In this document: positions 2,422 to 32,368 of the stretch, piece by piece
Position numbering within the stretch: the stretch's first letter is position 1
Layout of the letters: every line of letters begins with the position of its first letter
Origin: Desulfosediminicola ganghwensis
GTDB taxonomy: Bacteria > Desulfobacterota > Desulfobulbia > Desulfobulbales > Desulfocapsaceae
Direction of reading: 5' to 3'
Assembly (NCBI RefSeq): GCF_005116675.2
Contig: NZ_CP050699.1
Coordinates: forward strand, 1,201,001 to 1,265,000
DNA: 64,000 nucleotides
Notes under the pieces: generated by a model
What the model was told of the DNA's origin: nothing
The model's input: the letters and a program-made list of their open reading frames with translations, nothing else
Database searches by the model: none
Program-made: the position numbers and the translations under genes

Positions 2422-2425
2422 TCGA
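2377..2425 (+). repeat. attL core repeat (tRNA-Pro 3' end)
   Basis: This 49-bp stretch is identical to 32549-32597. It runs from the anticodon loop through CCA and four bases beyond. Identity stops on both sides (C versus A on the left, T versus A on the right). Confidence 0.95.
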
Positions 2426-2464: not shown

Positions 2465-2466
2465 CG

Positions 2467-4876: not shown

Positions 4877-7714
4877 ATGGAAAATCAAGTACATTATGCA
4901 CCCGGAGCGCGGGTGGTTATAAGAGATGCCGAATGGCTGGTAAGAAAAGTCGACCGTACCTCGACGGGTGGTCAGGCGATTACTGTGGTGGGTATATCCG
5001 AGCTTGTAAAGGATAAGGAAGCTATTTTTTTGAGCCGTATTGATACAGATATCGAAATCCTTGATCCTGTCGATACCAAATTGGTGCAAGACACCTCCAG
5101 TGCCTACCAGGCTTCAATGCTCTATATGGAAAGCTTGTTGCGCCGTAAGGCACCTACCGATGCCAGTCTTTATGCAGGGCATAAAGCGGCTATGGATCTT
5201 GTTCCGTATCAGCTCGACCCTGCAATACAGGCGTTAAAGCAACCACGGCAACGTATTCTTATCGCAGATGCTGTTGGTCTTGGTAAGACGCTGGCCAGCG
5301 GGATTTTGATGAGCGAGCTGATTCGGCGCGGACGCGGCAAGCGTATCCTGGTGCTGGTGGTAAAGTCCATGCTCACCCAGTTCCAGAAGGAGATGTGGAG
5401 TCGCTTTACCATCCCACTGGTGCGTCTCGACTCTGTCGGTATTAATCGGGTACGCAATAGAATCCCGACCAACCACAACCCTTTCTACTATTACGACAAA
5501 GCCATTGTCTCTATTGATACCCTGAAACAGGATACCGAGTACAGAACTCACCTCGAAAATGCCTACTGGGATATCATTGTAATCGACGAAGCACACAATG
5601 TTGCTGAGCGTGGCAACGGCAAGTCGCAAAGGGCCAAGTTGGCCAATTTGCTTGCCGACAGGTCTGACACCCTTATCATGCTCTCGGCAACCCCCCATGA
5701 CGGCAAGGCGAGAAGCTTCGCCAGCCTCATGAACATGCTTGACCCCACCGCAATTGCCAACCCGGAAGATTACGGGCCTGAAGACATTAAAGGGCTCTAT
5801 ATCCGGCGCTTTAAAAAGGACATTCAGGACCAGGTACAAAACGCCTTCAAGCCCCGTGAGATCAGCAAAGCCTACTGCCAGGCCTCACCTCTTGAAGAGC
5901 AGGCATTTGATGTGTTTGCCCGGCTCAAGTTCGCAAGACTCGATCAGCGCAAAGGGGCTGGGCAACTTTTTAAGACCACTCTTGAAAAAGCGCTGCTCTC
6001 GTCTCCTGCAGCTTGCCTGCAAACCATCAATAACAGGCTCAAGCGGCTTGAAAACGATTCAGGTAGAGAAGCATATAAGGATATTGAGAGCCTCACCGAG
6101 CTTGCCGAACAGGTTGAGGCTATAACTCCCGATCAGTTTGCCAAATACCAGAAGCTAGTTGCCGTCATCAAAGACAAGAAAAAAGGCTTTGGCTGGAGCG
6201 GCAAAAAGAAAGATGATCGCCTGGTTATTTTCACAGAGCGAATTGAGACTCTTCGTTTTCTCGAGGCAAACCTTACGGGGGAATTGGGGCTAAAAGAAGA
6301 TCAGGTCGAGATTCTCCACGGCTCAATGGCCGACATCGAACAACAGCGCATCGTGGAGGATTTCGGCAAGGAAGAGGCAAAAGTCCGGTTGCTGATCGCG
6401 TCCGATGTTGCCTCCGAAGGTATCAACCTGCATTATCTCAGCCACAGGCTCATCCATTTCGATATCCCTTGGTCGCTCATGGTGTTCCAGCAGCGTAACG
6501 GCCGTGTGGACCGTTATGGCCAGGAAAAGGCTCCCCAGATTCTCTACCTCGTCAACCAGAGTGAAAACCCGAAGATCAAGGGCGATATGCGTATACTTGA
6601 GCTTCTTATCACCAAGGATGAGGAAGCGGTGAAAAATATCGGTGATCCTTCCGCCTTGATGGGGGTCTATGATATCGATGCAGAAGAGAAGATCACCGCA
6701 GATGCCATGGAGCGAGGCCTGAGTGAAAACGAGTTCGGACAGGAGCTGGAAGCTGATGATCCGCTCTCGTTATTTTTTGAAGATGCAGATAAACAGGATG
6801 AACAGAACGACAGCGCGGTGGATGCAATTCGTTCTATGTCGAGTCTTTACCAGAACGATTACCACTACCTGAAAAGCGCAGTTAACTACCTGCGGGAGAA
6901 AGATAAGCTGCAAATCAGCTTTGATGACGACAATCAGGAAATCGAACTTTTTGCCGGGGAGGATCTGAAACGCAGACTCAAATATGTTCTGCCGCGCGAG
7001 GTATGGCCTGAGAAAGATAATTTTATTCTTTCTGCACAAACAAACACAATTCAAAACGAAATCAAGCGCAGCCGAAAAGACGAAAACGCCTGGCCGAATG
7101 TCCACTATCTCTGGGAGCAGAATCCGCTGGTCGAGTGGATTAACGACAAGGTCGTGGCAGGATTCGGCAGGCATGAAGCTCCCGTACTGACTCTTCCAGG
7201 TAGGCTGGCTGCCGGAGAGGTCGTGGTACTGCTCTCAGCACTGATCCCCAACCGTAAGGGACAACCGCTGCTGCATTACTGGCTGGGGGTGAACTTTAAT
7301 CAGGGTATTTTTCAAGAGATTGAGCGGCTTGCACCGCTTCTGGCCCGCACGGGTTTTGGCACCAGAGAATTTCCCAATCCGGATCAGGAGGTGGATCTCG
7401 ATAATCTCAAAAGGTTGCTTCCTGAAGCTGTCAAACAGACAAAAGCCTTTATGACCACTGAACGGGCAAGCTTTGAGGAAGATATCAATACTAAACTGCA
7501 AACACACCTCGACGCACTGGAGAAGCTGAAAGGCAAACAATACCGCCAGCTGGACCTCTTTTTCGAAGAAAAACGTCAGCTCAGCAAAAAAGAAGAGAAA
7601 AAACGCGAGATCGATCGCAAGTTCGACGAATTTATGCGCTGGGTGGAAGACAGCATGACCACTGAGGATAACCCGTTTATCCAGGTTATTGCCGTACTGA
7701 AGGGAGATTCCTGA
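4877..7714 (+). CDS. DrmD-like SNF2-family helicase/translocase
   Basis: This 945-aa SF2 protein belongs to the Swi2/Snf2 (RapA-like) group. Visible motifs are Walker A DAVGLGKT (131-138), DEAH (about 237-240), LSATPHDGK (about 272), motif V SDVASEGINL (about 508) and motif VI QQRNGRVDRYGQ (about 538-549). The region after about 620 is acidic and then helical, ending in a Lys/Glu-rich coil. Such proteins move on double-stranded DNA using ATP. A SNF2 ATPase directly before a large adenine methylase is the opening of class 1 DISARM (drmD-drmMI). The stop codon overlaps the next start by one base (TGATG), so translation is coupled. The ribosome site before ATG 4877 is weak. The call as DrmD rests on motifs plus neighbour, not on alignment. 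Confidence 0.8.
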   Translation: MENQVHYAPGARVVIRDAEWLVRKVDRTSTGGQAITVVGISELVKDKEAIFLSRIDTDIEILDPVDTKLVQDTSSAYQASMLYMESLLRRKAPTDASLYAGHKAAMDLVPYQLDPAIQALKQPRQRILIADAVGLGKTLASGILMSELIRRGRGKRILVLVVKSMLTQFQKEMWSRFTIPLVRLDSVGINRVRNRIPTNHNPFYYYDKAIVSIDTLKQDTEYRTHLENAYWDIIVIDEAHNVAERGNGKSQRAKLANLLADRSDTLIMLSATPHDGKARSFASLMNMLDPTAIANPEDYGPEDIKGLYIRRFKKDIQDQVQNAFKPREISKAYCQASPLEEQAFDVFARLKFARLDQRKGAGQLFKTTLEKALLSSPAACLQTINNRLKRLENDSGREAYKDIESLTELAEQVEAITPDQFAKYQKLVAVIKDKKKGFGWSGKKKDDRLVIFTERIETLRFLEANLTGELGLKEDQVEILHGSMADIEQQRIVEDFGKEEAKVRLLIASDVASEGINLHYLSHRLIHFDIPWSLMVFQQRNGRVDRYGQEKAPQILYLVNQSENPKIKGDMRILELLITKDEEAVKNIGDPSALMGVYDIDAEEKITADAMERGLSENEFGQELEADDPLSLFFEDADKQDEQNDSAVDAIRSMSSLYQNDYHYLKSAVNYLREKDKLQISFDDDNQEIELFAGEDLKRRLKYVLPREVWPEKDNFILSAQTNTIQNEIKRSRKDENAWPNVHYLWEQNPLVEWINDKVVAGFGRHEAPVLTLPGRLAAGEVVVLLSALIPNRKGQPLLHYWLGVNFNQGIFQEIERLAPLLARTGFGTREFPNPDQEVDLDNLKRLLPEAVKQTKAFMTTERASFEEDINTKLQTHLDALEKLKGKQYRQLDLFFEEKRQLSKKEEKKREIDRKFDEFMRWVEDSMTTEDNPFIQVIAVLKGDS

Positions 7715-10700
7715 TGACTATCGATATTACTGGTATCAGCAACGAAAACGAGTTCTATACCCATCACTATCTCTCGGCAATTTTAGAGAATGACCTGAAA
7801 TCGGTCTTTGCAGGGTGGAAGCAAAGAGAAGAGGAAGAAGCGATTAAGCAGCCCTACAAACAGCTGCAGTCTCTTCGTCAGCCCTATTTTTCCATGCGCG
7901 CCAGCCTGGCGAAGGTAAAAAGAACCGCAGACAGGCTTACCGTGCAGCGCGAGTTTATAGCAGCTTTGCTGGATGCTTTGGGCTATCGGTTTGAGCCGCA
8001 GTTTGCCGATACCGAAAACGGTGCCATTCTGCCGTTGATAGGCGGGGTAAAAAGAGCGGATGGTTCTCCCGAGCTATGGATTGTCGAGGCTGTGGATATT
8101 CACGGTGAAGAACTTGACCCGTTTGAGCTTTCTTTTTTCCCTGAGCAGTATCCGGCCACAACAGAAGACAAAGATCGGATCGAAGACCTTCTTGAAGAAG
8201 TGATTACCAAAGTAATCTTCAGTCGAAGCGAACCGCCTCGCTGGGTGATTCTGATAAGCTCTAGCCAGCTCCTGCTGCTGGATCGAACCAAATGGCATGA
8301 GAAGCGCATCCTGCGTTTTGACTTCCGCGAAATTCTTGATCGCAAGGAACCCTCCACCCTTCAGGCAATGGCTGCCCTGCTGCATCGTGAGTCAATTTGC
8401 CCGCAGGACGGTACGCCGCTGCTCGACACCCTTGATGAAAACTCCCATAAGCATGCCTTCGCAGTTTCTGAAGATCTGAAATATTCGCTGCGTGAGGCTA
8501 TCGAGTTGCTGGGCAATGAAGCGCTCTGGTACTTAAAAGAAACAAGAAAGGAAAAAGTTTTCGGGCTCGATCGTGCCAACCAGCTCAGCCGTGAATGTCT
8601 GCGCTATATGTACCGCATGCTTTTTCTCTTTTATATCGAGGCACGGCCTGAGCTTGGCTATCTGCCGACAGAGTCGGAGGAATACCGTAAAGGCTACAGC
8701 CTCGAGTCGCTGCGCGATCTCGAGATGGTACCGCTTACTACCGAGGAATCACGTAACGGCTATTACCTTTATGAGTCGATCGCAACACTCTTCAAGCTGC
8801 TCTACGATGGCTTTCAGCCCAAGCAGCTTGATATGTATGCTGATTCCATCCACCATACCTTTCGGATGGCCCCACTCAGATCGCATCTTTTCGATCCGGC
8901 CCAGACGAAGATCCTGAATAAGGTCAAATTCCGCAACCATGTTTGGCAGAGAATCATCGAGCTGATGTCGCTCTCCCGTCCCAAGAAAGGCAAAAAAAAT
9001 AGACGCGGCCGCATTTCCTATTCCCAGCTTGGCATCAACCAGCTGGGTGCAGTCTATGAAGCGCTGCTCTCCTATCAGGGGTTCTTTGCCGAGACCGATC
9101 TCTATGAGGTGAAAAAGGCGGGTGATACTCACGATGTACTTGCCACCGCCTATTTCGTACAGGCGGAGGATTTGGAGCAATACACGGAGGATGAGCGGGT
9201 CTTCAATAAGGACGGTAGCCTGATGGTCTACTCCAAAGGCACCTTCATCTACCGACTTGCCGGGCGAGACCGGGAAAAATCCGCTTCCTACTACACCCCA
9301 GAGGTGCTCACCCAATGTCTGGTGAAATATGCCTTAAAGGAGCTGCTCAAAGATAAAACCGCAGACGGTATCTTACAGATCACCGTCTGCGAGCCCGCCA
9401 TGGGCAGTGCGGCGTTTTTAAACGAGACGGTCAACCAGCTTTCCCGCGCCTATCTCGATCTTAAGCAAAAAGAACTCGGCACCACCATCCCCCATGAGGA
9501 GTACCCGCAGGAACTTCAGAAGGTGAAGATGTATATCGCCGACAATAATGTCTATGGCGTTGATCTGAACCCTGTGGCGGTGGAGCTGGCGGAAGTCTCC
9601 CTTTGGCTCAATACTATTTACAAAGGGGCTTATGTGCCCTGGTTTGGTACCCAGCTGGTCTGTGGTAATTCTCTGGTGGGCGCGCGACGGCAGGTCTATA
9701 GCTCAAACCTGCTGAAAAAACGACAGCGTGGCGACAATCTCTGGGTCGATGAAGTCCCCGAGCGGGTAATGCCGGGTGAGGAACGCCAGCCTGACACAGT
9801 CTACCATTTCCTGCTGCCGGATAAATCCATGGCCAACTATACCGATAAGGTGGTCAAACAGCTGGCAGGAGAGCAGATAAAAGCAATCAATGAATGGCGC
9901 AAGGAGTTTACCGAGCCGTTCCAGCAGTATGAAATCGACCAGCTGGAAAAACTCTCGGCAGAAGTAGATAAGCTCTATAAACGCCATGTACAGATGCAGC
10001 GGGATATCTGCCGCCGCACCACCGATCCGCTTAAAGTCTATGGCCAGAATGAGATCGATTCTGAGCTGCGATTAACCACCACCGAAGCAAAGGACCGGAT
10101 TTATAATCAGGAGGTGCTTGCCAAAGATGTACGCAACTCCAGCCCCTATCGTCGGTTGAAACTGGTGATGGATTATTGGTGTGCGCTGTGGTTTTGGCCT
10201 ATCGAAAAGGCGGATCTGTTGCCGAGCCGTGCCGAGTTTATGTTTGATATGAGCCTACTGCTTGAAGGGAATCTATTTGAGGCTGAGCAGACCGATGCTG
10301 GTGGGCAGATGCGGCTTTATCCGGATACCAGACCGAAACAGATGTCTATTAATCTGGTGGACGAGCTGGGTTATGTGAATGTGGATAAGCTGTGCCGGGA
10401 GAATGACAGGCTGGGATTGGTGCAGGAGCTGGCTGGGCGATATCGGTTTCATCATTGGGAGCTGCATTTTGCTTCGATGTTTGCTGATCGGGGTGGCTTT
10501 GATCTTATTCTGGGGAATCCACCGTGGTTAAAGGTGGAGTGGAATGAAGGTGGGGTGATGGGTGACAAGGATCCGCTTTCAGTATTGCGGAAACTGTCTG
10601 CCTCGAAAATGGCGGAAAAGCGGCAGGAGGTTATAGGGAAATATGGTTTGCTCAGTGGATATCTTGCTGGCTATGAAGAGTCATCGGCTACCCAGAATTT

Positions 10701-12447: not shown

Positions 12448-12479
12448 TATTGAAATGAATGAGTATTGATTAGGGCGAT

Positions 12480-13382
12480 ATGTCAAAAAAATCAGCTGAG
12501 AAACCACAATTACCAAAATTTTCGCAATGGTTGAATGTAGACCCCACTGTGAATGGAAAGAAATATCTACATGTTTTGCTGACTGAACTATCTGGTGTTC
12601 CGGATGAGTTTTGGCAGGAGCTTGTGGCATATATCGACCATGCGCATCAGGGAGCGAGAAACGTTTTACGGGCACCGCTTGGTGATAGTCTAAGCCCGGT
12701 TCATTATGGGAAGAAAATAGATCCCGCATTTGGGTACCCCCATAAATTTGACATTATTGCTTTGCAAGGTTTTTTTGGAGAGATTCTCACTGGAATTATT
12801 GCCGAACATATCGATTTATTGGATGACGTCGATTGGGAGGTACCAGTTTATCTGTTTCGAGCCCATACAACTGCATTTCAACAGTTAGAAGAAATAAAAA
12901 ATACAGGTGAATGGGGAAAGAGAATAATGGGGAGAACCGGCGATGATGGACTGGCTTTTGCCCGTGATGAAGAGGGCAACATTGTTAGCTGGATGGCTTG
13001 TGAAGCAAAATGCACAAGGGGACATAGTGCCGCATTGATTAATGACAACCATGAAAAGCTATCGAAATCTGCGGTTAAAAAACCTGTAGATTTGTTACGA
13101 ACTATAAAGGCATTAGAGGATTATGCCGATGATGATTATGCAAAAGAGTGGATAGACGCTTTACGAAAACTCTATTTTGAAAACGGTAGTGTGAAACGTT
13201 ATGATTTTAGCGTCTATGTATGTGGGAGAAAGCCTGTAAGAGAAACAACATGGATACCGACTGATAAACCTCACACGAGCTATGCAGCTAAGAGAAAACT
13301 CAATGCTGCAGAAATCCAGATCTTAGAGGTCGTAGATAAGATAAAACGAATTTACAAAAAACTGGGGGAGATCCATGACTGA
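12480..13382 (+). CDS. HamA/AbpA-like (DUF1837) predicted nuclease
   Basis: The 300-aa protein carries a probable PD-(D/E)XK site: E101 in GFFGEILTGI, D155/D156 in GRTGDDGLAF, and E175/K177 in ACEAKCTRGH. This arrangement, and the 3' overlap with a Ski2-like helicase, fit HamA (DUF1837) of Hachiman and AbpA of AbpAB. HamA is known as a DNA nuclease held in check by HamB. The C-terminus is helical and basic. It has no signal or membrane segment. Its 3' end overlaps the helicase start by 8 bases. Its codon use is AT-richer than the methylase before it, which suggests separate origin. The nuclease call is good. The HamA assignment is inference from motif and context. Confidence 0.7.
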   Translation: MSKKSAEKPQLPKFSQWLNVDPTVNGKKYLHVLLTELSGVPDEFWQELVAYIDHAHQGARNVLRAPLGDSLSPVHYGKKIDPAFGYPHKFDIIALQGFFGEILTGIIAEHIDLLDDVDWEVPVYLFRAHTTAFQQLEEIKNTGEWGKRIMGRTGDDGLAFARDEEGNIVSWMACEAKCTRGHSAALINDNHEKLSKSAVKKPVDLLRTIKALEDYADDDYAKEWIDALRKLYFENGSVKRYDFSVYVCGRKPVRETTWIPTDKPHTSYAAKRKLNAAEIQILEVVDKIKRIYKKLGEIHD

Positions 13383-16300
13383 TTTATCTCCAGAGCTTCT
13401 CGAATTGATTCATGCAAAAGGGGAACGGCTGGCCGGTGATAAGATGGCCAGGTCTATAGCTAGGCTCTATAGCCATCAAACACGATATCAGGAGAGTAGT
13501 GTTGGACTACTGTCCTGGAAAGCTGGTGAAGCAAAGCAAAGATTACAAGATGCAGAACAGTTGTTGGAGGCAGGATTACTCTTAAGAGAAACCGACCAGA
13601 ACCAAAGTAAAAGGTATTTACGCAGAGCTGCTGAAATTTATGAGTGGTTGGGGGGAGTACAGGAAAATCCATCCGACGTAAATCTATACTTTTTTGCAGC
13701 TGCTTCATATCAGTTAGCAGGGTACTCGGCTAGAGCGCTTGGAGTTCTGAGTAAGGACCAGAGTAGAGGTGGGTATTCCAGAGCAATTTTTTATTTTTTA
13801 AAGGGTGATTATAAGAATCTTCAAAAAACAGTAATACTGGGTGTAAGGAATTTACAAGAGGCAGCAGAGCAGGCAGAAGATGTACAACTGAAATACGGTA
13901 TTGATCTATCAATTGATGTTTTGAGGTGCTTTGGCATTTTCTGTTCCTGGCTTAGATGGGGTGAAGAAGATCGTATTGAACGGATTTTCGACGATATAGC
14001 GAGAATAAGTAAAGCTATGTTGTATGGTGATGATACGCATTCATGGCTGCTTGCAAGACTAATTCATATTATTTTTAGAGATAATCATGAAAAATCACTC
14101 AGAAGATCGGTGCAGGTACTGATTGGTACCGTAAATGAAACAGGACAAAAGGCGTTTGAAAGGTATGTCCAGAGATCGTTCAACTCAAATACAACCATAA
14201 CTTGGCCGTCACAGTTAGCTGGTATTCAAGAGTTGTCAGCCAAAAATTCATTCGCACTATGCACTCCAACTGGATCTGGGAAGACAAGGATCGCCGAACT
14301 GGCAATACTTCAAAGTCTCTTTTCAACGAAATTTACTAGTCTTAGCGATACATCACCCATAGTTCTGTATCTCGTCCCTTCTCGCGCTCTTGCAATGGAG
14401 GTTGAAGCTACTATTGCCGATGTATTTAGAAGAGTTGGAATCGCTGATGTTTCTGTTTCATCAATGTATGGGGGAAATGATTGGGGCCCTTCTGATGCGT
14501 CAACAAATATTGAAAACTCCTGTGTATTGATCTCGACCCATGAAAAGGCTGAGGCATTGTTGAGGTTCTTGGGCTCTGGGATTGTTCAACGAATATGTTG
14601 TTTGATCGTTGATGAAGCCCACACCGTTGCGTTTGATGATAATATTGAAACGTTGAAAACGTCGAAAAATCGATCGCTCCACCTTGAGTCACTTGTCGGG
14701 AGAATATTTTCGTTAGTTGATCGTGACAAACTGCGTGTAGTTGCCTTATCTGCCGTTGCATCCAATGCAAAAGCAAACCTTGCCCAGTGGGTAACGGGAG
14801 AAAAAGAGAGTGCTGCGATTGCCACCCGATACCGTAGTACCCGACAATTAGTTGGTCGATTACTGTGCAACAGTAATGGTCGGACGAAAATCGAGTATGA
14901 CATGTTGGATGGCCAAAGGCTTGTTGTGCAAGGAAGTTCTGAGGAAGAACGGCCATATATTGTCAATCCATTCCCCCAACATCCCCCTACTGGAAATGCA
15001 TTTGCAGCGAGTGCAAGTTTAGAGGTGAAGATGCGTGCACACCTGTTGTGGAGTGCTATGCATCTTGCAGCAAAGAAAGAAGAGGGTGATAGCTTTCATG
15101 CTGTACTCGTATCAATAACAGCTAATCCTGAGCATTATGCAAAATCGTTTTTAGACTTATTGAGCAGGGACTGGAAAGATGTTGATAAACCAATATTTTT
15201 TCTCCAACCAGAAGAAGGGAAAAAGAAAAAATTATACGAAGACTGTTTAGCAACATGTGCAGATTGTTTTGGTGAAACATCCAGGGAGTATAAGCTGTTA
15301 ACTTATGGAGTGGTATTGCATCATGGCAAAATGCCTTCCGTAATGTCGAATATGCTTATTAAGCTCATTCAAAAAAAGATAATAAATATCGTTGTAGCTA
15401 CTTCGACTATATCAGAAGGTGTTAATTTACCTTTTGAGACAGTACTCTTGCCAACCCTTCATCGTTATCCTGGTACGCTTTCTGTAAAAGAATTTGCAAA
15501 TTTAATCGGTCGAGCAGGTAGGCCGGGAACATCTATTGAGGGAAGGTGTTTAGTCCTATTCAACCCGTCATCTAGCAGCGTATCACATTTTCGAAGTTTA
15601 GAGGCATATGAAGAGTGTGTTGAAGAACTCGTTGGCTCAGTAGGCGAATTAGATGATTCTGATGAAGATACAAAGTATGGGCCACTTGCAGAGCTGATCA
15701 GATATATTTGGGAGCAATGGAAACTGCTAAGTAAATCTGGAGAGGTGGATTTGTTCTTTGAATGGCTCGAAACCGCAGTTTTTGAGAATGATGCTCCAGA
15801 AACTGAGAATTATGCCCTGTTGGCTTTAGATTCATTTGATGAGTTTTTACTTGCTGCTATATGCGAGCATGAAAATGATGATATGGATGAGGATCTTGAA
15901 ACTCATCTTGCAGATTTATGGAAGCAGACTTTTTCATATTACTCAACCTCATTTAATGATGTTTTTCAGGAATGCGTGACCGTCAGAGGTAAGGCCATTG
16001 TAGAGAATGTTTATCCTGACCCTAAAGAGCGTAGATGGTTATATAACACATCATTACCCCCTCGAGATGGTAAAATAATTCTTAAAAAGCTTGATGATAT
16101 TATAAAATTACTAGAATCTGCAAAAGATTATGTTGAATGGGATTCGGAGGAAAGGATCTCTTTCTTTCTTGCTTTAATGGATGAAGTTCGGGAAATACCG
16201 TCTTTTCACTTTGAAGACGCAGGGAACTTTACACGTGCTGATGTGCTTGGATGGTGGATGAAAGGGTATGGGCACACTCTTAATAGGCAACCGGCGGTTG

Positions 16301-16893
16301 CTAGTATCTCTCGTTGGTATAAATATGGCTCTGTAAACTTCGCGTATTTATTCAATTGGGGCGTTGGGTCTATTGTCGGCACTTTACTTGGTGATGTCGA
16401 TTCAGATAACGGAACCCTACAACGTTGGGAGAATGCTGGTTATCCTTGGGCTGTTTTATGGATTAAAGATATGATTTCCTGGGGGGTGCTTGATCCTGTC
16501 GCGGCTTGGTTGATGAACGAAAGAAGAGTAATAACCAGGGATGATGCAATAGAGGAAGCACAGAAATATTGGGATGAACATGAATCGAACATTGATGATT
16601 CGCTTCTGGATCCTCGTTTAATTAGGAAGTGGTTTATTTCAGAGAAAAAAGAAAAGAAAAAAATCAGAAAGAAAAGGACAGGTATTCCTATAGAACAGAT
16701 AGTAAAAATAGATTTGTTGCCTAATGATAAATGGAGAGTTCTGCCGATCGTTGTTGGGGATAAAATCCTATGGAATGATTCAGCTTGCTATCCCCTAGTT
16801 AAGTCAGATATCCCGGCAGATTGGGAGAAAATTGCTAAACGGGAATTTATTTTGAATGTTAAGAAACGGCAAATATCTGTTCTCAAGAAGTAA
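13375..16893 (+). CDS. HamB/AbpB-like Ski2-type SF2 helicase
   Basis: The 1172-aa protein starts at ATG 13375 after a GGGGGAG ribosome site. An N-terminal all-helical region (1-280, TPR-like feel) precedes a Ski2-type helicase core: Walker A TPTGSGKTRIAE (about 298-309), DEAH in IVDEAHTV (about 412), motif III LSAVAS, motif V TSTISEGVNLPFE (about 677) and motif VI LIGRAGRPG (about 709). The C-terminal 400 residues are acidic and then Lys-rich. In Hachiman the helicase surveys DNA and releases HamA when it meets damaged or phage DNA. The pair here has the same gene order and overlap. A 74-base gap follows. The helicase class is certain and the HamB role is likely. Confidence 0.78.
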   Translation: MTDLSPELLELIHAKGERLAGDKMARSIARLYSHQTRYQESSVGLLSWKAGEAKQRLQDAEQLLEAGLLLRETDQNQSKRYLRRAAEIYEWLGGVQENPSDVNLYFFAAASYQLAGYSARALGVLSKDQSRGGYSRAIFYFLKGDYKNLQKTVILGVRNLQEAAEQAEDVQLKYGIDLSIDVLRCFGIFCSWLRWGEEDRIERIFDDIARISKAMLYGDDTHSWLLARLIHIIFRDNHEKSLRRSVQVLIGTVNETGQKAFERYVQRSFNSNTTITWPSQLAGIQELSAKNSFALCTPTGSGKTRIAELAILQSLFSTKFTSLSDTSPIVLYLVPSRALAMEVEATIADVFRRVGIADVSVSSMYGGNDWGPSDASTNIENSCVLISTHEKAEALLRFLGSGIVQRICCLIVDEAHTVAFDDNIETLKTSKNRSLHLESLVGRIFSLVDRDKLRVVALSAVASNAKANLAQWVTGEKESAAIATRYRSTRQLVGRLLCNSNGRTKIEYDMLDGQRLVVQGSSEEERPYIVNPFPQHPPTGNAFAASASLEVKMRAHLLWSAMHLAAKKEEGDSFHAVLVSITANPEHYAKSFLDLLSRDWKDVDKPIFFLQPEEGKKKKLYEDCLATCADCFGETSREYKLLTYGVVLHHGKMPSVMSNMLIKLIQKKIINIVVATSTISEGVNLPFETVLLPTLHRYPGTLSVKEFANLIGRAGRPGTSIEGRCLVLFNPSSSSVSHFRSLEAYEECVEELVGSVGELDDSDEDTKYGPLAELIRYIWEQWKLLSKSGEVDLFFEWLETAVFENDAPETENYALLALDSFDEFLLAAICEHENDDMDEDLETHLADLWKQTFSYYSTSFNDVFQECVTVRGKAIVENVYPDPKERRWLYNTSLPPRDGKIILKKLDDIIKLLESAKDYVEWDSEERISFFLALMDEVREIPSFHFEDAGNFTRADVLGWWMKGYGHTLNRQPAVASISRWYKYGSVNFAYLFNWGVGSIVGTLLGDVDSDNGTLQRWENAGYPWAVLWIKDMISWGVLDPVAAWLMNERRVITRDDAIEEAQKYWDEHESNIDDSLLDPRLIRKWFISEKKEKKKIRKKRTGIPIEQIVKIDLLPNDKWRVLPIVVGDKILWNDSACYPLVKSDIPADWEKIAKREFILNVKKRQISVLKK

Positions 16894-16967
16894 ATAAATA
16901 TCAATGCACTGTTATCGAACTGCCTGCATGAGTCGATTGCAAAGATGGTAAAAGGAAGAGTAAACAT

Positions 16968-19900
16968 ATGATCCCTTCAGTACTGGCCCAACATGTTGAG
17001 CAGGGGGTAAAGGATTTTCTGCGCACCACCTTTCCTGTAACGACTCCGCATTTCGATGAAGTACTTGAGCGTTTGCTCGAAGAGCCAGGAAACGTGTTTA
17101 AAGGGCCGTATCTGGATATACAGCTGCCTTTTCAGCAGGGTAAGGGCGGTGTTGGGTATTTCCCTGACCTGCCAATGAAATATCCTCCGTATCTCCATCA
17201 GGAAAAGGCGTTTGATCGGTTGTCCGGAGAAGATCCCAAGGCCACTATTGTTGCTACAGGTACAGGTTCAGGTAAGACCGAGAGTTTCCTTTATCCTATT
17301 CTCGATTACTGCTACAGGCATCGTAATGAGCCGGGTATCAAGGCCATTCTCATATATCCGATGAATGCGCTGGCATCAGATCAGGCGGGACGACTGGCGA
17401 GTCTTATTTTTAACAGTAAGGCGAAAGGGCATGTTACCGCCGGTATCTATGTTGGACAGCAGGAGAAAGAGCCTACCAAAGTGATGCAGGAGGAGAGGCT
17501 GATTTCAGATAAGAGTACAATGCGTCTCTCTCCACCGGATATTCTGCTTACAAACTATAAAATGCTCGATTACCTGCTGCTCCGGCAGGAAGATAAAAAA
17601 CTCTGGGAACATAATACACCTGACAGTCTCAGGTTTTTGGTTGTCGATGAACTCCATACCTTTGACGGGGCGCAAGGCGCTGACCTGGGTTGTCTGATAC
17701 GTCGTTTGAAAGCAAGGCTTGCGATAGAAGAAAAATACTTATGCTGTGTGGGCACCTCTGCTACTTTAGGTGATGGCGGCGTGCTGGATGAACTGCTTGA
17801 CTACAGTTCCGCTGTATTTGGTGAGGAGTTTACGAGAGCCTCTGTAGTAACTGAATTCAGGCGATCTGCCGGTGAGTTTTTGGCCGATGGTTTGATAGCT
17901 CGTTCGGATGTTATACCTGCAGCACGGGTGGACATGCTAGATCCTGAATCGTATGAATCCTATGAAGAATATATCAGGGCCCAGCATGAGCTGTGGCTCG
18001 ATGAGGAGATTAAAGGCGACTTTGCAGAAAATGGTTGGCGGATCAAGCTAGGCGAGCAGCTAAAGCAACACCTATTTTTTCACAACCTTATCAGGATCCT
18101 TAAAGGCGGTGTAAGCAGCTACGAAGAGATTTTCCTGCAGTTTGAAAAGATTAATAAAGAATTTCGGGATGGGGACAGAAAATATCAGCAGAATTTGCTG
18201 AACAGTTTGCTGGCTCTCATCTCTGAAGCCCGGGCAATCGTATTGAGCTATTCTTCTGATGGTAGTACAGAGGAACAGTACATGCCTTTTTTGAATGTGC
18301 GTCTTCAGCTTTGGCTCAGGGAATTGCGACGCATGGTATGCGAAGTTGCAGAGCAGCCTGTTCTGCGTTTTGCCGATGACCTCAATGATGAACAATTAAA
18401 TATCCATCTACCGCTGGTTCATTGCCGTGAATGCGGCAGTATGGGGTGGACCGGGCTGAAGAAACAGAATAACACGGCAGTGATGGGGGAACTGAAGAGT
18501 TTCTATCAGGCCTTTTTTAAGCATGACCCAAAAGTTGTATTTATTTTTCCAGAGAAAAATGATGTTCGGGAGCAGGCTCCGCGGGTTGGCATGTATTATT
18601 TCTGCCCGAGATGTCTTCATGTAACTGCAGAATCACGCTCCGGTGGTTGCGGCCATTGTGATCATACGTCGTTGCTGCTGGTCTATATGCCGGATACGAG
18701 AGTAAAAAGGAAAGATAAACAAGCAAGTGTCAATGACTGCCCATATTGCAACAGTCGAAACAGCCTAACTTTGCTTGGTTCTCGTGCAGCCAGCCTGACC
18801 AGTGTAATGATTGTGCAGCTTTTTTCATCGACGTACAACGATGACAAGAAGCTATTGACCTTTTCCGATAATGTACAGGATGCAGCACATCGGGCTGGAT
18901 TCTTTAACGGCAGGACATATCGATTTAACTTCAGGGCTGCCCTTCAGCAGTTTATTTTGGCCGGAGGGGATGGCCTCCCGTTAGCATCTGTCCCTGATGC
19001 TTTCATAGAATACTGGAAAAAGTGGGTTGATCAAAACCAGTATATATCCACTTTTCTTGCCCCGAATATGGAGTGGTTTAAAGATTATGAAGTGCTGCAG
19101 CAAACCGGGACATTGCCTAGCGGATCAAAACTGATTGAGGATATAGATCTCAGAATCGGTTGGGAGATCAACTGTGAGTATGGCTACCAGGCCAGGATTG
19201 GTCGAACATTGGAAAAAACTGGTTCTTCAGTCGTCCACCTTGATCAGGATTTGCTGGATAGGGTTGTTACGCGCCTGCTACCAATTCTACAAAACGAATT
19301 TGGGCCACTACGCACATTGAAAGAGGAAATGCTTGGGCGGTTTATTCTGGGCTTTCTTGTGAACTTAAAGAACCAGGGTGGCATTTTTCAGCCTTCTCTC
19401 AGGTCGTATGTGGTTGATTACGGTAATACCTACCTCTTGAACAGAATAAACTGGCTACCGAATTTCGGGAGAAATTCACGATCCCCATCTTTTCTTACCA
19501 CAAAGTCACAAACTCGATTTGACACACTCCACAGCACCGGGAAAACGCACAGGACATGGTACCTGAACTGGGCGGATAAATCTTTTGCAGAATTAATTAC
19601 CCTTGTGTCAGGAGGCGAAACTGTCTCCAGAGACATTTATAAACCGGTACTGGATGCACTGGTTGAGGAGAAAATTCTAGTAGAGCTTGAGTCCAAAAAG
19701 GACAAAATTTGGGGAATCTCAACAGATGCGCTAAAGGTTTCTCTGCGTGTGAGCCAATATCGGTGCAGTGAGTGCGGGCACAATCTCTCAGTTGCTGAAG
19801 AAGAGGAATCGTATTTTGAAGATGGTAATTGTCTGCGTTTTTATTGCCCTGGTACATACAGCAGACTTTCAAATGGCGTTGATTATTATGGCAAACTCTA

Positions 19901-22900
19901 TGCAACTGGAGATGTTGCCAGGATCTTTGCCCGGGAGCATACCGGACTTTTGGCAAGAGATGTCCGAGAACAGTTGGAAATAGATTTCAAAACTGAAGAA
20001 GACGAGCGGAAGCCCTGGTATCCTAATCTGCTTTCTTGCACCCCGACCCTGGAGATGGGTATTGATATCGGTAGCCTTTCATCACTTGTGCTCTGTTCGG
20101 TACCTCCACGGCAGGCAAATTATGTGCAGCGTATTGGCCGGGCAGGTCGACGCGATGGTAATGCCCTGAATCTTACGGTCGCCAATGCTCGGCCTCATGA
20201 TCTGTATTTCTTTGCCGATCCGAAAGAGATGCTGGCCGGACATGTTGAATCGCCGGGCATCTTTCTTGATGCATCTGCTGTGCTTGAGCGACAGGTCACA
20301 GCTTTTGGTTTTGACCGGTGGGTTGCTCTTTCGGATATCGCTCTTGTTCCTAAAACTTTGGGCAAGGTCCTGGGTAATCTGGACAAAGTGGACCCCAGTA
20401 AGTTCCCCCATAATTTCATAAAGTTTATAGAAACACATCAGGTTGATCTTTTTCAGCAATTCCTGGCCCTGTTTGTTGGTAGGTCACAATTAAGCGATGA
20501 GTCTGTAGAAAGGCTGAAACGTTTTGTTGAGGGAGACAGTAAAGGGGAAAGCGGACTTCGCCTTGCGATTATGAATGGTTTGCATGCCAGAAAACTGGAA
20601 CGGGACTCGCTGCAAAAAAAGACCCGTACGCTTACCAAAAAGATCAAGGCGAAAAAGGGTGGTCCAAAGGATATGAACTATGAGGAGGAACTTCGGGATC
20701 TCGAGATAGAAAAATCGGCTCTTCAGTCTCTTGTAAGAAATATCAAGAACCGGGACACCTTTAATTTTTTTACCGATGAGGGATTGTTGCCGAACTATGC
20801 TTTTCCTGAGGTCGGCGTCATGTTGCGTTCATTAATCTACCGGAGAAAAAGTAAGGTTCAGACTGGTGAGAGTAATTACGAGACCTGGCATTATGACTAC
20901 GAGCGTCCGGCAGTGGCAGCCATTCAGGAACTGGCCCCGGCAAACACCTTTTACGCAGGAGGACGGCGTGTAACGATCGATCAGGTTGACATGGCTGTAT
21001 CAGAAGTGGAAGCCTGGAGATTCTGTAATAACTGTGCGCATAAAGAACAGGTTGGTACTGCAGAAGAAAGGGAGAGTTGCGTTGTCTGTGGAAGCCCGAT
21101 GTGGTCCGACAGTGGTCAGAAAAGGCAGATGTTGAAGTTGAGGCAAGTGTTTGCCTCGACAGCGGATAACAAGAGCCGGATCAGTGATGACAGCGATGAT
21201 CGTGATCCGGTCTTTTATAACAAGCAGATGTTGGTGGAGTTTGACGGTAAACATGTGCTTGATGCGTTTAAGATTGATGCGGATTTTCCTTTTGGTTTTG
21301 ATTTCATTTCAAAGGTTGATTTTTGTGAAATCAACTTTGGTGAAGTGAGCGAGATTGGCAGCAAAGACACCATTGCAGGTAAAGAAGCAGTTCGCAAAGG
21401 TTTCTCTCTGTGCAAGGTGTGTGGAAAGTTGCAGGAGAAGCCGGAAGAGCCCGTGCATGATTTATCCTGTACTGCTCGTGACAAGACTTCTGAGAAGAAC
21501 CTGATAGAGTGCATATATCTTTACAGGCAATTTACCTCTGAGGCGATCAGGATACTGCTGCCAGTTTCTATAATTGATGAATCTGAGCGTAAGCTGCAAT
21601 CACTTATTGCTGCAATTCAATTTGGTTTAAAGCTCAAGTTTAAAGGGAAGATCGATCATCTGCAGTCGACGGTGGCAGAGGAACCTTTGCCTGATTCGGC
21701 CTTGAAACGAAAATACCTTGTTATATACGACAGCGTACCTGGTGGTACAGGGTACCTGAAGCAGTTGATGCGCTCAGATTCACAGCTGATGGAAATTTTC
21801 GATATTGCTTTAAAGGCGTTACGTGCGTGTAACTGTAACCAGGTTGAAGGTAAGGATGGCTGTTATCGTTGTCTCTATGTGTATAAAAACAGCTTTTATA
21901 TGCCTGAGACTTCAAGAGATACGGCGATTGACCTTCTCTCTGAAATATTGGGCTATCGTGAGCAGCTCGTTCGAACAAAGAGCCTTTCATCAATTTCCTT
22001 CAATTCGTTCCTGGAATCTGAGCTTGAAGTCAGGTTCATAGGGGCATTAAAACTCTATGTAAAGGATGCTGAAGGGACCTTTAAAAATGATTTGTTGAAT
22101 GGCAATAAACCAGGCTATTTCTTTAGTTTTCAAGATAAGGCCTATTATGTAGAGCCTCAGGTTGAGTTAGGCTCTGCGGATGGTGTGGCCATAGCATCAA
22201 GGGCAGATTTTGTCATTCGGCCTGCACGATCTGGGCAGGGAGGAAAGCCGATAGCTGTTTTCCTTGATGGATTTGCTTATCATCGCGACAGAGTCGGCCA
22301 GGATATGGCGCAACGAATGGCCATAGTTCAGAGTGGTAAATTTCATGCATGGTCCCTGACATGGTACGACGTTGAAAACAAGTTTGAATCAAAGGGTGCC
22401 TACTGGCAGAAGATGTTGGAAATCAGTTCATTGCCCATGGGCAGCAAGTATGATGTGCTGTTGCAAAGTTTTGGTGTCACTGGCTTTAAAGGGTTGGAGC
22501 AGCTTAACAGTTTTGAATTGTTATTTAAATTTTTAGAGAACCCGGATAGCGACCTCTGGGCGAAGTATGGGTTTACCCTGGCTACTCTTTTTAGTGATCA
22601 TGCAAGATTCAATAAGCCTGGCGCTTTGGAGGAGTGGACGACGGAACTTGAGACTCGTTTCCCATATACGATTTCTGACGTTGTCAAAGAAAGTGAATGC
22701 CCATGTCTTTATGGTCATCGTGAATATGAGACTGACGTAGACGGCAAGAAGATAATGAGCCTGTTGATGGTTGCAGAGCAGGCAGCTATCAAACCACCGC
22801 AAAATATGAATGGTGTTCGTCTGGGGTGTTGGCTGGATGATAGTGAGAAGATAAGGACAGATGAAGAGTTTCGTTCTTTCTGGAATGGGTATTTAGCTCT

Positions 22901-23336
22901 TTATAACATATTTCAATTTCTTGGTTATTCCTATTTCGTGACCCGGGAGGGTGTTGCGGATTCGGTGTATGGTGAATTGAAATTGGCTGTATCTGCCTCA
23001 TTTACTGAAAGGACTTCAGAACTGTCCGCTGCAGATGATCCCGAATGGAGCGAAGTAAAGGAGCTGACGGATGATTCACTGCATGAACTACTTAACCTGT
23101 TGAGGGGCGCTGGTTGGCCAATACCGGTCGTGGGATATGAGTTGGAAGGCGAAGATGGAGAAATTATGGCCTCTGCCGAGCTTGCCTGGGAAGATGCATC
23201 AATAGCATTTCTCGAGGAGAGTGAATTGGAGTTTCAACCAAATTTCACCAAGAAAGGGTGGGGCACCTACTCCATAGTTGAGGTGTTGGAGAATCCTGAG
23301 AAGCATTCAAATTTATATACGGATAAAAAGGACTAA
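16968..23336 (+). CDS. giant DUF1998 helicase with probable Vsr-like nuclease domain (DruE/MrfA-type)
   Basis: At 2122 aa this is the largest protein in the window. Its SF2 core is of the Hrq1/MrfA type: Walker A TGTGSGKTES (about 97-106), a DELH variant Walker B (about 227), VGTSATLG (about 260), motif V LEMGIDIGSL (about 1028) and motif VI QRIGRAGRR (about 1053). Long insertions between the two RecA lobes carry several CxxC zinc knuckles. The DUF1998 signature CNCNQVEGKDGCYRCL lies at about 1620. A further 480 residues follow. Within them ADFVI (about 1745) and IAVFLDGFAYH (about 1762) followed by spaced D, R, G and LTW match the pattern of Vsr/DUF559-type endonucleases. Druantia DruE has similar size and DUF1998. 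DISARM splits helicase (DrmA) and DUF1998 (DrmB) into two proteins, so this may fuse both roles. Confidence 0.8.
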   Translation: MIPSVLAQHVEQGVKDFLRTTFPVTTPHFDEVLERLLEEPGNVFKGPYLDIQLPFQQGKGGVGYFPDLPMKYPPYLHQEKAFDRLSGEDPKATIVATGTGSGKTESFLYPILDYCYRHRNEPGIKAILIYPMNALASDQAGRLASLIFNSKAKGHVTAGIYVGQQEKEPTKVMQEERLISDKSTMRLSPPDILLTNYKMLDYLLLRQEDKKLWEHNTPDSLRFLVVDELHTFDGAQGADLGCLIRRLKARLAIEEKYLCCVGTSATLGDGGVLDELLDYSSAVFGEEFTRASVVTEFRRSAGEFLADGLIARSDVIPAARVDMLDPESYESYEEYIRAQHELWLDEEIKGDFAENGWRIKLGEQLKQHLFFHNLIRILKGGVSSYEEIFLQFEKINKEFRDGDRKYQQNLLNSLLALISEARAIVLSYSSDGSTEEQYMPFLNVRLQLWLRELRRMVCEVAEQPVLRFADDLNDEQLNIHLPLVHCRECGSMGWTGLKKQNNTAVMGELKSFYQAFFKHDPKVVFIFPEKNDVREQAPRVGMYYFCPRCLHVTAESRSGGCGHCDHTSLLLVYMPDTRVKRKDKQASVNDCPYCNSRNSLTLLGSRAASLTSVMIVQLFSSTYNDDKKLLTFSDNVQDAAHRAGFFNGRTYRFNFRAALQQFILAGGDGLPLASVPDAFIEYWKKWVDQNQYISTFLAPNMEWFKDYEVLQQTGTLPSGSKLIEDIDLRIGWEINCEYGYQARIGRTLEKTGSSVVHLDQDLLDRVVTRLLPILQNEFGPLRTLKEEMLGRFILGFLVNLKNQGGIFQPSLRSYVVDYGNTYLLNRINWLPNFGRNSRSPSFLTTKSQTRFDTLHSTGKTHRTWYLNWADKSFAELITLVSGGETVSRDIYKPVLDALVEEKILVELESKKDKIWGISTDALKVSLRVSQYRCSECGHNLSVAEEEESYFEDGNCLRFYCPGTYSRLSNGVDYYGKLYATGDVARIFAREHTGLLARDVREQLEIDFKTEEDERKPWYPNLLSCTPTLEMGIDIGSLSSLVLCSVPPRQANYVQRIGRAGRRDGNALNLTVANARPHDLYFFADPKEMLAGHVESPGIFLDASAVLERQVTAFGFDRWVALSDIALVPKTLGKVLGNLDKVDPSKFPHNFIKFIETHQVDLFQQFLALFVGRSQLSDESVERLKRFVEGDSKGESGLRLAIMNGLHARKLERDSLQKKTRTLTKKIKAKKGGPKDMNYEEELRDLEIEKSALQSLVRNIKNRDTFNFFTDEGLLPNYAFPEVGVMLRSLIYRRKSKVQTGESNYETWHYDYERPAVAAIQELAPANTFYAGGRRVTIDQVDMAVSEVEAWRFCNNCAHKEQVGTAEERESCVVCGSPMWSDSGQKRQMLKLRQVFASTADNKSRISDDSDDRDPVFYNKQMLVEFDGKHVLDAFKIDADFPFGFDFISKVDFCEINFGEVSEIGSKDTIAGKEAVRKGFSLCKVCGKLQEKPEEPVHDLSCTARDKTSEKNLIECIYLYRQFTSEAIRILLPVSIIDESERKLQSLIAAIQFGLKLKFKGKIDHLQSTVAEEPLPDSALKRKYLVIYDSVPGGTGYLKQLMRSDSQLMEIFDIALKALRACNCNQVEGKDGCYRCLYVYKNSFYMPETSRDTAIDLLSEILGYREQLVRTKSLSSISFNSFLESELEVRFIGALKLYVKDAEGTFKNDLLNGNKPGYFFSFQDKAYYVEPQVELGSADGVAIASRADFVIRPARSGQGGKPIAVFLDGFAYHRDRVGQDMAQRMAIVQSGKFHAWSLTWYDVENKFESKGAYWQKMLEISSLPMGSKYDVLLQSFGVTGFKGLEQLNSFELLFKFLENPDSDLWAKYGFTLATLFSDHARFNKPGALEEWTTELETRFPYTISDVVKESECPCLYGHREYETDVDGKKIMSLLMVAEQAAIKPPQNMNGVRLGCWLDDSEKIRTDEEFRSFWNGYLALYNIFQFLGYSYFVTREGVADSVYGELKLAVSASFTERTSELSAADDPEWSEVKELTDDSLHELLNLLRGAGWPIPVVGYELEGEDGEIMASAELAWEDASIAFLEESELEFQPNFTKKGWGTYSIVEVLENPEKHSNLYTDKKD

Positions 23337-23341
23337 AACAG

Positions 23342-25513
23342 ATGGCATCAGCGAATGCAGCAAAGGTAGCGATAGCATCGGAATTTTTGAATGCCTTTTC
23401 GAATATTCCGAAAAAGCAGCAGGGCAAGGTTATGGAATTTATTGCAAAGTTTCGGGCAAACCCGCTTGCTCCCTCTATCAACTATGAAAAGATCGCATCT
23501 TTCAAGGATCAGACTTTACGTTCTGTACGGATTGATAAAGTGTATCGCGGGATAGTAAAAAAACCTGATACGAGTAACGTATTTCTGCTGCTTTGGGTTG
23601 ATCATCATGACAAAGCCTATCAGTGGGCGGAGAATAAGAAATGTACGATTAACCCGGAAACTGGAAGTCTTCAGGTATATGAGGTTGATGAAGTCAGTCT
23701 GCAGGAAGCTGATAGTACTAAATACCACAAGCATGATAGTGATTCAGGTGAACAGCCATTATTTGAAGAATATCGTGATCGTCAGTTGCTGAAACTCGGT
23801 GTCCCTGAAGAATTAATCGTACTTGTTCGTAAGATCATAACAGAAGATCAACTTGATAATGCAGCCAGGCAGCTTCCGGCAGAAGCAAGCGAAGCTTTGT
23901 TCGCTCTTGCAATGGGGTACTCGTTGGAAGAGGTTTATCAAGAGATTGGCCGGTCTGAAGCTGAAGAATTTACAGTCGATACTGAAGATTACGCGAAAGC
24001 ACTGGAAAACGCGGATACCAAGCGGCGTTTCTTTGTAGTTGAAGACGATTTGATATTGCAGGAAATCCTTGATGCACCTTTGGAAAAATGGCGTGTATTT
24101 CTCCATCCATCACAGCGCAATCTCGTAGAGCGGGACTGGAATGGTCCGGTACGTGTTTTAGGCGGTGCGGGTACGGGTAAGACGGTTGTTGCCATGCATA
24201 GGGCAAAGTGGCTTGCACAGGAGCGATTCATTCGCAATGAAGAAAAAATCCTTCTGACCACGTTTACTCGAAATTTGGCAGCCGATATCAAAGAAAATCT
24301 TGGAAAAATCTGTTCCGATGACACCATGAAACGGATCGAGGTGATCAACCTTGATCGTTGGGTAGCCCATTTTTTGAGAAAGCACGATTATAATTATGAA
24401 ATTGATTACGGGAAAAAATCCGCCCCACTCTGGGAAAAAGCCTTAAGCCTTGCTCCTGAAGAACTTGGTTTGGGTGATCAGTTTTATAGAGAGGAGTGGG
24501 AGCGCATTATCCAACCATATCGGATCAGTACATTCGCTGAGTACGCAAAAGTTTCTCGAGTAGGGCGTGGAACCCGGTTGAATAGGAAAGAGAGAAAACT
24601 GATTTGGCCGGTGTTTGAAGAATATCGATTGTTGATGAATGAGAAAGGTCTGCGTGAGAATGTCGATGCTATAGGTGATGCCAGGGCGTTACTGAAGGAT
24701 AAAGGTGATATCCTTCCATATAAGGCTGTGATTGTTGATGAAGCCCAGGATATGAGCGGACAGGCATTTGAGTTAATTCGACAGATGGTCCCCGGTGGTA
24801 ATCAGAAAAACGATATCTTTATTGTGGGTGACGCCCATCAGCGCATTTATCGGCATAAGGTTGTTTTGGGACAGTGCGGTATCAACATCGTCGGCAGGGG
24901 TAGGCGGCTCAAAATCAACTATCGAACTACTGATGAAAACCGCAAGTGGGCAGTTAACCTTTTAAAAGGCGTGAGCTTTGATGATCTGGATGGCGGGCTT
25001 GATGATCAAAGAGGGTACAAATCCCTGGTATACGGAGAAGCACCAGTTGTGAAAGTATTTACCTCATTTCAGGAGGAAATTGAATTCATCAATAACTATC
25101 TGGAAAGAGTTGAAGCTGAAGGTGGCGCTTTGAATGAGGTATGCCTGGTTGCCAGGACTCATGAGTTACTGAAGCAATATGAAGGTGTACTGACAGCCAA
25201 GAGTCGAGAGACATTCTTTATACATCGGAGCGAAGCCGAAAATCGCAAAATTCCAGGGATTCGATTGGCAACAATGCATCGTGTGAAAGGGTTGGAATTT
25301 GACCGGGTTGTTATTGCGGGTGTTAATGATGGAATGGTCCCTTTTACAAGGATGAGTGAAGGAACCTCTGATAAGGTTGTTGAGAGAGAAAGTGAGATAC
25401 AAGAGAGAGCTTTGCTCTATGTTGCGGCTACGCGTGCTAAACGCGAGGTTGTTGTGACGAGTTTTGGCAAGGTGAGTAAGTTTCTCGGGCCGCAGCAACT
25501 TTGTAAGGGGTAG
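23342..25513 (+). CDS. UvrD/Rep-like SF1 helicase with RelE/ParE-like N-terminal domain
   Basis: The 723-aa protein begins five bases after the giant helicase. Residues 1-115 resemble a RelE/HigB/ParE toxin fold: a helical start, then DQTLRSVRIDKVYRGIVKK, then LLLWVDHHDKAYQWAE. The helicase core has Walker A GGAGTGKTVVAMHR (about 275-288), VDEAQDMSG (about 465), an arginine-rich motif near YRTTDENR, ATMHRVKGLEFDRVV (about 643) and LYVAATRAKREV (about 692). SF1A enzymes of this kind unwind 3'-5' on single-stranded DNA. The toxin-like domain is a recurrent N-terminal extension of such helicases and may bind nucleic acid or a partner rather than act as an RNase. It closes the operon. Confidence 0.8.
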   Translation: MASANAAKVAIASEFLNAFSNIPKKQQGKVMEFIAKFRANPLAPSINYEKIASFKDQTLRSVRIDKVYRGIVKKPDTSNVFLLLWVDHHDKAYQWAENKKCTINPETGSLQVYEVDEVSLQEADSTKYHKHDSDSGEQPLFEEYRDRQLLKLGVPEELIVLVRKIITEDQLDNAARQLPAEASEALFALAMGYSLEEVYQEIGRSEAEEFTVDTEDYAKALENADTKRRFFVVEDDLILQEILDAPLEKWRVFLHPSQRNLVERDWNGPVRVLGGAGTGKTVVAMHRAKWLAQERFIRNEEKILLTTFTRNLAADIKENLGKICSDDTMKRIEVINLDRWVAHFLRKHDYNYEIDYGKKSAPLWEKALSLAPEELGLGDQFYREEWERIIQPYRISTFAEYAKVSRVGRGTRLNRKERKLIWPVFEEYRLLMNEKGLRENVDAIGDARALLKDKGDILPYKAVIVDEAQDMSGQAFELIRQMVPGGNQKNDIFIVGDAHQRIYRHKVVLGQCGINIVGRGRRLKINYRTTDENRKWAVNLLKGVSFDDLDGGLDDQRGYKSLVYGEAPVVKVFTSFQEEIEFINNYLERVEAEGGALNEVCLVARTHELLKQYEGVLTAKSRETFFIHRSEAENRKIPGIRLATMHRVKGLEFDRVVIAGVNDGMVPFTRMSEGTSDKVVERESEIQERALLYVAATRAKREVVVTSFGKVSKFLGPQQLCKG

Positions 25514-32337: not shown

Positions 32338-32368
32338 CTGTTTCTCCTTCAGGTTCGGGAAAGGAAAA

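Follow-up and report, generated by a model that had tools for sequence, protein, structure and literature searches.

INTRODUCTION

The ARMADA type II system of Escherichia coli is reported to protect its host directly, without killing the cell, and its four genes are reported to suffice for protection (PMC12458937). E. coli Hachiman is reported to sense damaged DNA and to degrade all DNA (PMC12278908). Here we describe a locus of Desulfosediminicola ganghwensis in which relatives of both systems lie in one gene array. A 64,000-nucleotide (nt) stretch of contig NZ_CP050699.1 (positions 1,201,001 to 1,265,000), hereafter called the window and numbered from its first letter, carries a predicted ARMADA type II operon, armA-armB-armC-armD, with a divergent Hachiman-like gene pair, hamA-hamB, between armB and armC.

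The main text of the ARMADA report (Bell et al., bioRxiv 2025, PMC12458937) gives type II a strict gene order and describes ARMADA on tRNA-integrated phage-like elements with 16–20 nt repeats and HUH-type replication genes. Our locus resembles that system in its genes, in the armA-B-C-D order, in the residues that were mutated and in its tRNA-integrated phage-like carrier. It differs in having a two-gene Hachiman between armB and armC and in the length of the carrier repeats, which is 49 bp. The terms 'Hachiman', 'accessory', 'inserted between', 'between ArmB' and 'additional gene' do not occur in that main text (supplements lay outside the search). Relative to the HamAB pair of E. coli ECOR31 (PDB 8VX9), as described in PMC12278908, the embedded pair is alike in its HamA fold, D...ExK site and HamB match. 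Unlike the ECOR31 pair, it shows very low HamA identity, has no Pfam match for its nuclease and sits inside another defence operon.

Small defences embedded in larger systems are already known. Hma-embedded candidates (HEC; Payne et al. 2024 as cited in PMC12988326) are described as small defence modules nested in a host operon; in our case the host is ARMADA type II with one preferred junction, and a HEC-01A/B pair itself occupies that junction in another ARMADA locus (L121). In BREX, nuclease effectors embedded in the core loci of a methylase-based system are proposed to be backup effectors (PMC12839542); here the host system is another one and both genes of a complete system are carried as cargo. 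Nuclease–protease pairs acquired by Hachiman and other systems have also been described, and one review names ARMADA and Hachiman separately (PMC12904381). Among the literature matches listed, no description was found of an ARMADA operon with Hachiman inside it or of an armB-armC slot. What is new is the placement of HamAB between armB and armC.

RESULTS

Four arm-like genes enclose two others

Six co-directional open reading frames (ORFs) occupy the + strand between positions 4877 and 25513. They encode proteins of 945, 1577, 300, 1172, 2122 and 723 amino acids (aa) and are joined at intervals of -1, 32, -8, 74 and 5 nt, which confirms the coordinates and the domain calls of the first-pass annotation. 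Since the genome is a single 5.65 Mb contig, the operon is free of contig ends. The predicted genes and the interval of interest are:

4877..7714, + strand: armA, SNF2/RapA-like helicase, 945 aa (E. coli ArmA homology)
7714..12447, + strand: armB, PglX/type IIG-like adenine methyltransferase, 1577 aa (E. coli ArmB homology)
12480..13382, + strand: hamA-like nuclease, 300 aa, embedded cargo (predicted fold, HamA match)
13375..16893, + strand: hamB-like Ski2-type helicase, 1172 aa, embedded cargo (PADLOC HamB1, profile match)
16968..23336, + strand: armC, YprA/DUF1998 helicase with a C-terminal nuclease-like region, 2122 aa (E. coli ArmC homology)
23342..25513, + strand: armD, UvrD/GajB-like helicase with an N-terminal extension, 723 aa (E. 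coli ArmD homology)
12448..16967, no strand: armB-armC cargo slot, 4520 nt here (junction survey)

Pfam searches placed SNF2/Helicase_C domains in the first protein, an Eco57I/N6 adenine methylase with an NPPW motif in the second, DEAD and Helicase_C in the fourth, DEAD, MZB (DUF1998) and Helicase_C in the fifth and UvrD in the sixth. No terminator-like site was listed at the joints 12447-12480 and 16893-16968 in a scan of 2400-18000, a range that ends before the later joint.

By homology, genes 1, 2, 5 and 6 are ArmA to ArmD of ARMADA type II. The E. coli reference was strain Z1322HEC0005 (locus L003), whose positions fit the published motif numbers. Identity over aligned columns was 52.6, 53.8, 40.9 and 48.5% for ArmA, B, C and D, with alignments of near full length, and all eight published mutation sites are conserved in the window proteins; six of these eight mutations are reported to abolish protection and two to reduce it (PMC12458937). 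The conserved pairs are E. coli K136/D236 in ArmA (K137/D237 in the window), G605 and the NPPW N971 in ArmB (G564/N935), K110/D234 in ArmC (K103/D227) and K266/D454 in ArmD (K280/D466). At the sequence level, the C-terminal block of ArmC (described for ARMADA type II as a Vsr-type nuclease) and the N-terminal ~100 aa of ArmD, termed RelE-like in PMC12458937, also align with their E. coli counterparts. The type II order of RapA/SNF2, PglX-like, YprA-like and GajB-like genes is present, with two extra genes between the second and the third.

The PADLOC label of armA was DrmD/BrxHII-like. For armB it was REase_MTase_IIG (PDLC03614, residues 27-1575, 1001.5 bits), which also ranks first for E. coli ArmB. 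The fifth protein matched E. coli ArmC end to end with 1472 bits, whereas its best segment against the DruE that adjoins ArmC in E. coli scored 113 bits; these pairwise scores place gene 5 in the ARMADA and not the Druantia branch. The best solved match of the window ArmC was PDB 9tu7_Y, a 2108-aa DEAD/DEAH helicase (E 4.1e-45). ArmB gave no match in phage records at 1e-20.

The middle pair as a divergent Hachiman

Genes 3 and 4 are a divergent HamA-HamB pair, as judged from a predicted fold for the nuclease and from profile matches for the helicase. The 300-aa protein matched no Pfam family at E≤1, and so lacks the DUF1837 assignment that characterizes Hachiman; its match to PADLOC HamA1 (DUF1837) was weak (E 0.022). 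That same model, PDLC00159, finds 17 of 25 family members at E≤0.1. An AlphaFold2 model of the protein (mean predicted local distance difference test score 87.5) gave two Foldseek matches in the PDB at E≤1e-3, both of them HamA of E. coli Hachiman. Re-examination of the Foldseek candidates (VIA-align) gave a Z score of 18.8 to HamA 8vx9_A over 242 residues (root-mean-square deviation 3.8), followed by 15.3 to 8vxy_A and 13.1 to 8zue_A, the latter from another Hachiman entry, with all remaining candidates at 5.0 or below.

Residues E101, D156, E175, A176 and K177 are invariant across 25 aligned HamA-like sequences, the window protein among them. In a profile alignment E175/K177 correspond to HamA E138/K140, the double mutation of which is reported to ablate Hachiman defence (PMC12278908). 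We therefore retain the original call of a PD-(D/E)XK nuclease, with a predicted D...ExK site, which both the modelled fold and the invariant E101, D156, E175 and K177 back.

The 1172-aa helicase lies directly downstream of hamA with an 8-nt overlap. It scored 270.9 bits against PADLOC HamB1, and its top solved match in a profile search was HamB 8vx9_B (E 1.7e-58). Elsewhere, 38 of 41 loci with the HamA-like gene also have a HamB-like match next to it (near-identical loci were kept, and several flanks end at contig ends), and in five cyanobacterial loci (L005, L011, L012, L017, L018) the two are fused in one ORF of 1530-1569 aa. The HamA fold match and the HamB profile match also uphold the earlier proposal of a composite defence operon with a Hachiman-type nuclease–helicase pair. 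In one locus (L024, 711-5174) a YprA-family (ArmC/DruE-like) helicase match lies on the opposite strand less than 10 kb from the HamAB pair. No HamA-like relatives were confirmed in viral contigs.

The armB-armC junction behaves as a recurrent cargo slot

Similarity to ArmB was used to gather ARMADA loci from genome draws, plasmids, E. coli records and viral contigs; the draws comprised 395, 398, 292, 257, 247 and 274 genomes (partly overlapping) together with the six genomes behind loci. Forty-six loci were placed by tblastn. The armB-armC junction was measurable in 33, which include two rearranged or decayed loci (L060, L066); the other 13 are L048, L052, L054, L065, L067, L075, L108, L109, L110, L112, L113, L133 and L134. 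The fragments L055, L079 and L083 were excluded from the slot count. One further junction, in L125, was added later and is closed, giving 34.

The armB-armC distance exceeded 300 nt in 20 of the 33 loci (20/34 with L125), the window included. The same was seen for armC-armD in 1 of 26 loci, where inserts that move ArmD beyond the 20-kb stretch may be missed, and for armA-armB in 7 of 41, a set in which L075 and L112, the same plasmid, both count. Among 24 complete loci, deduplicated by counting three enterobacterial copies once, gaps above 300 nt numbered 13 for armB-armC and one each for armA-armB and armC-armD. Sign tests on discordant loci were 12:0 for armB-armC versus each other junction (p 0.0005). 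A gap of this size need not be a gene, as L114 and L132 have no convincing same-strand ORF. The armB-armC junction thus behaves as a recurrent cargo slot and, because 20 of 34 junctions exceed 300 nt, ARMADA type II is poorly defined by a lack of extra genes.

Five of the seven wide armA-armB gaps (L108, L109, L111, L114, L115) come from a single draw, the one centred on the Nostoc genome of L012. Departures from the printed strict order were also seen. In Cylindrospermopsis (L075, 2226-18899; the L112 plasmid) an ArmC/ArmD-like pair lies upstream of ArmA/ArmB, giving the order C-D-A-B, and in L113 an ArmD match is likewise upstream. No ArmC is in view in L109, where the ArmD match runs on the opposite strand.

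Cargo and its turnover

Families of defence or toxin–antitoxin type were found in 8 of the 20 filled slots:

Window: HamAB
L061: near full-length TmtA (838 bits) and a DUF932 protein
L121: DUF2971 (PDC-S31), a DUF4062 protein and a HEC-01A/B pair (447/254 bits)
L136: P-loop protein with partial PDC-M28 matches; a 137-aa protein there has no Pfam family
L103: Abi_C match under the Pfam cut-off
L064: HigBA
L063: ParDE-like
L122: HTH-M78 protein and a small partner

The other filled slots are:

L058: no match in the family search
L059: 466-aa protein without a match and a Schlafen/AlbA protein
L073: MoxR-like ATPase fragment
L115: DEAD/UvrD helicase
L060, L062, L066, L104, L111, L114, L132, L137: outside the hidden Markov model (HMM) search

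On the ArmB tree, empty and differently filled loci are adjacent (L072/L073, L105/L103/L104, L135/L136 and L061/L064); cargo labels used there, such as HEPN, lipoproteins, UPF0175-like, DUF2442-like and XisHI, were assigned by inspection of the sequences. Since sister loci differ in cargo in this way, turnover appears to be rapid. A second, diverged ArmB tail follows the cargo in L061 (20211-20405) and L136 (11970-12281), and a second ArmC start precedes HEC-01 in L121 (about 2380-2457, - strand); the best E-value of each extra piece is with the locus that carries it, which suggests repeated insertion at the ends of armB or armC. A short match of L115 to its own ArmB tail failed to recur in a second comparison and was not counted. 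Around the HamAB insert of the window, neither direct repeats of at least 12 nt nor ArmB/ArmC remnants were found, so the insert has no scar from which its route of arrival can be seen.

The operon is cargo of an element at tRNA-Pro

The operon lies within a 30.2-kb element bounded by an exact 49-bp repeat at the 3' end of tRNA-Pro (tRNA at 2344-2421):

2377..2425, + strand: attL-like direct repeat, 49 bp exact, 3' end of tRNA-Pro
3753..4313, - strand: exonuclease-like gene (phrog_192, E 9.8e-22)
25902-26477, - strand: small terminase (phrog_51)
26819-28111, - strand: DnaB helicase (phrog_19)
28108-29100, - strand: replication initiation (phrog_2562)
31078..32421, - strand: tyrosine integrase (Pfam Phage_integrase and Arm-DNA-bind_3; phrog_1)
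32549..32597, + strand: attR-like direct repeat, 49 bp exact, far end of the element

The repeat, the integrase and the terminase, DnaB and replication genes together indicate that the operon is cargo of a phage-satellite-like element integrated at tRNA-Pro. In sister genomes the 3' end of this tRNA is repeated close to the same tRNA, which suggests a hotspot of integration that they share. Extra copies lie kilobases from the tRNA in three genomes (G001 C1 4573133-4580413, G002 C49 and G003 C1 near 5.2 Mb; L144-L151), two of them, of 47 bp and 100% identical, in G001, as if elements stood in tandem at this site in the sister genomes.

Two tRNA-Asn copies, at 2214-2289 and 60064-60139, lie 58 kb apart in the window and differ by one base; transposases are found between them at 35084-36634 and 41993-43468.

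DISCUSSION

We consider it probable that the locus is an ARMADA type II operon with a divergent Hachiman in the recurrent armB-armC slot, and that the two would act as co-expressed, autonomous modules supplying a direct and a suicidal layer of defence. The six genes would be transcribed as one unit. By analogy with the E. coli systems, ArmB would mark host DNA by adenine methylation, and ArmA, ArmC and ArmD would process unmarked phage DNA directly, so that the cell survives. HamB would separately sense DNA ends or damage and activate HamA to degrade DNA. Hachiman would form a second, suicidal layer once ARMADA is overwhelmed or countered, and the slot would let ARMADA elements exchange backup modules. 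A broader proposal, which we offer tentatively, is that ARMADA type II may be a platform with a dedicated exchange slot, whose backups (Hachiman, HEC-01, TmtA, abortive-infection and toxin–antitoxin modules) would be co-expressed and triggered by failure of the core or by its DNA products; here, direct restriction and genome-integrity-sensing suicide would be combined in one transcript.

Several findings weigh against this layered arrangement. HamAB was found at one of the 34 measured armB-armC junctions, that of the window, so the exact six-gene set is a singleton. Slot contents are very mixed: some slots hold toxin–antitoxin pairs, one has a pair on the opposite strand, and others are non-coding or contain small ORFs outside the family search. 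No recognized defence or toxin–antitoxin family is present in 12 of the 20 filled slots (four HMM-searched, eight outside that search). Since the L111 cargo has the opposite orientation and the L114 and L132 gaps seem not to code for proteins, the slot may only tolerate insertions. In E. coli, a 1-kb probe over the armB-armC junction was at least 80% covered in 514 of 518 genomes; pieces up to about 1 kb apart may be joined in this count, and 39 of the 40 matches listed are single full-length pieces. The sufficiency of the four E. coli genes and the ~14% identity of the HamA-like protein to HamA over the aligned fold count on the same side, as does the distribution of HamAB, which occurs without arm genes in the 41 other loci: no ArmA or ArmB match was present in any of their fetched flanks, several truncated by contig ends, and the divergent Hachiman otherwise stands by itself. 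The strongest of these points are the singleton combination and the mixed cargo, and because of them HamAB may be a mere passenger at a junction that tolerates insertions as it is not translationally coupled, with cargo functionally unlinked to ARMADA. We nevertheless regard a passenger as unlikely, given the defence or toxin–antitoxin type families in eight filled slots, the mostly closed state of the other junctions in the same loci and the six open, closely spaced ORFs of the window. The opposite alternative, an obligate six-protein machine in which HamAB would serve ARMADA as a recruited nuclease arm and the halves would be interdependent, could draw on the tight co-directional order, the HamA/HamB overlap and the lack of a listed terminator-like site at either insert edge. 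It is very improbable, however, since HamAB is missing at 33 of the 34 measured ARMADA junctions, 25 of these belonging to loci in which the whole set of four arm genes is in view, since the 41 HamA loci show no ArmA or ArmB in their fetched flanks, and since E. coli ArmABCD is reported to protect alone (PMC12458937).

The least credible account, to which we attach almost no weight, is that of the first-pass annotation, which saw a so far unclassified system combining class 1 DISARM, Hachiman and Druantia. In its favour, the best PADLOC labels of the window proteins are DrmD, type IIG methylase, HamB, DruE and C3a187/GajB. Yet PADLOC gives E. coli ArmA-D labels of the same kinds (DrmD, type IIG methylase, DruE and GajB/C3a187), which is how the hybrid reading arose. 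The SNF2 protein scored 351.7 bits, below the 610-bit NCBIfam equivalog cut-off for DrmD, and it and the methylase are homologous to ArmA and ArmB, so their assignment to class 1 DISARM does not hold; nor does that of the DUF1998 helicase to DruE, as this protein matches ArmC instead. A class 1 DISARM set comprises drmD, drmMI, drmA, drmB and drmC. The annotation had correctly noted the absence of drmB and drmC: all six operon genes go to Arm or Ham, and none is left over for either. Druantia type III is described as pairing DruE with DruH (PMC13192584); here gene 5 is ArmC-like, and its five neighbours in the operon belong to Arm or Ham. The Arm homology, the ArmC/DruE scores and the E. coli labels refute both the DISARM and the Druantia part of the hybrid. 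Four of the genes belong to one described system, ARMADA type II, and the six-gene combination was seen only here. Of the conditions that the annotation named as refuting its reading, one, that the six genes never co-occur elsewhere, comes close to holding: the set was found in this genome only, yet the armB-armC slot is recurrent.

Under the PADLOC 2023 models, known ARMADA genes appear as pieces of DISARM, type IIG, Druantia and Gabija systems. ARMADA type II joins the host operons that carry embedded defences, with the site narrowed to one preferred junction, which offers a simple rule for candidate defence genes: inspect whatever occupies the armB-armC interval. The locus also provides a natural test of layered immunity, in that a single operon would combine a system that spares the cell with one that senses damage and acts abortively.

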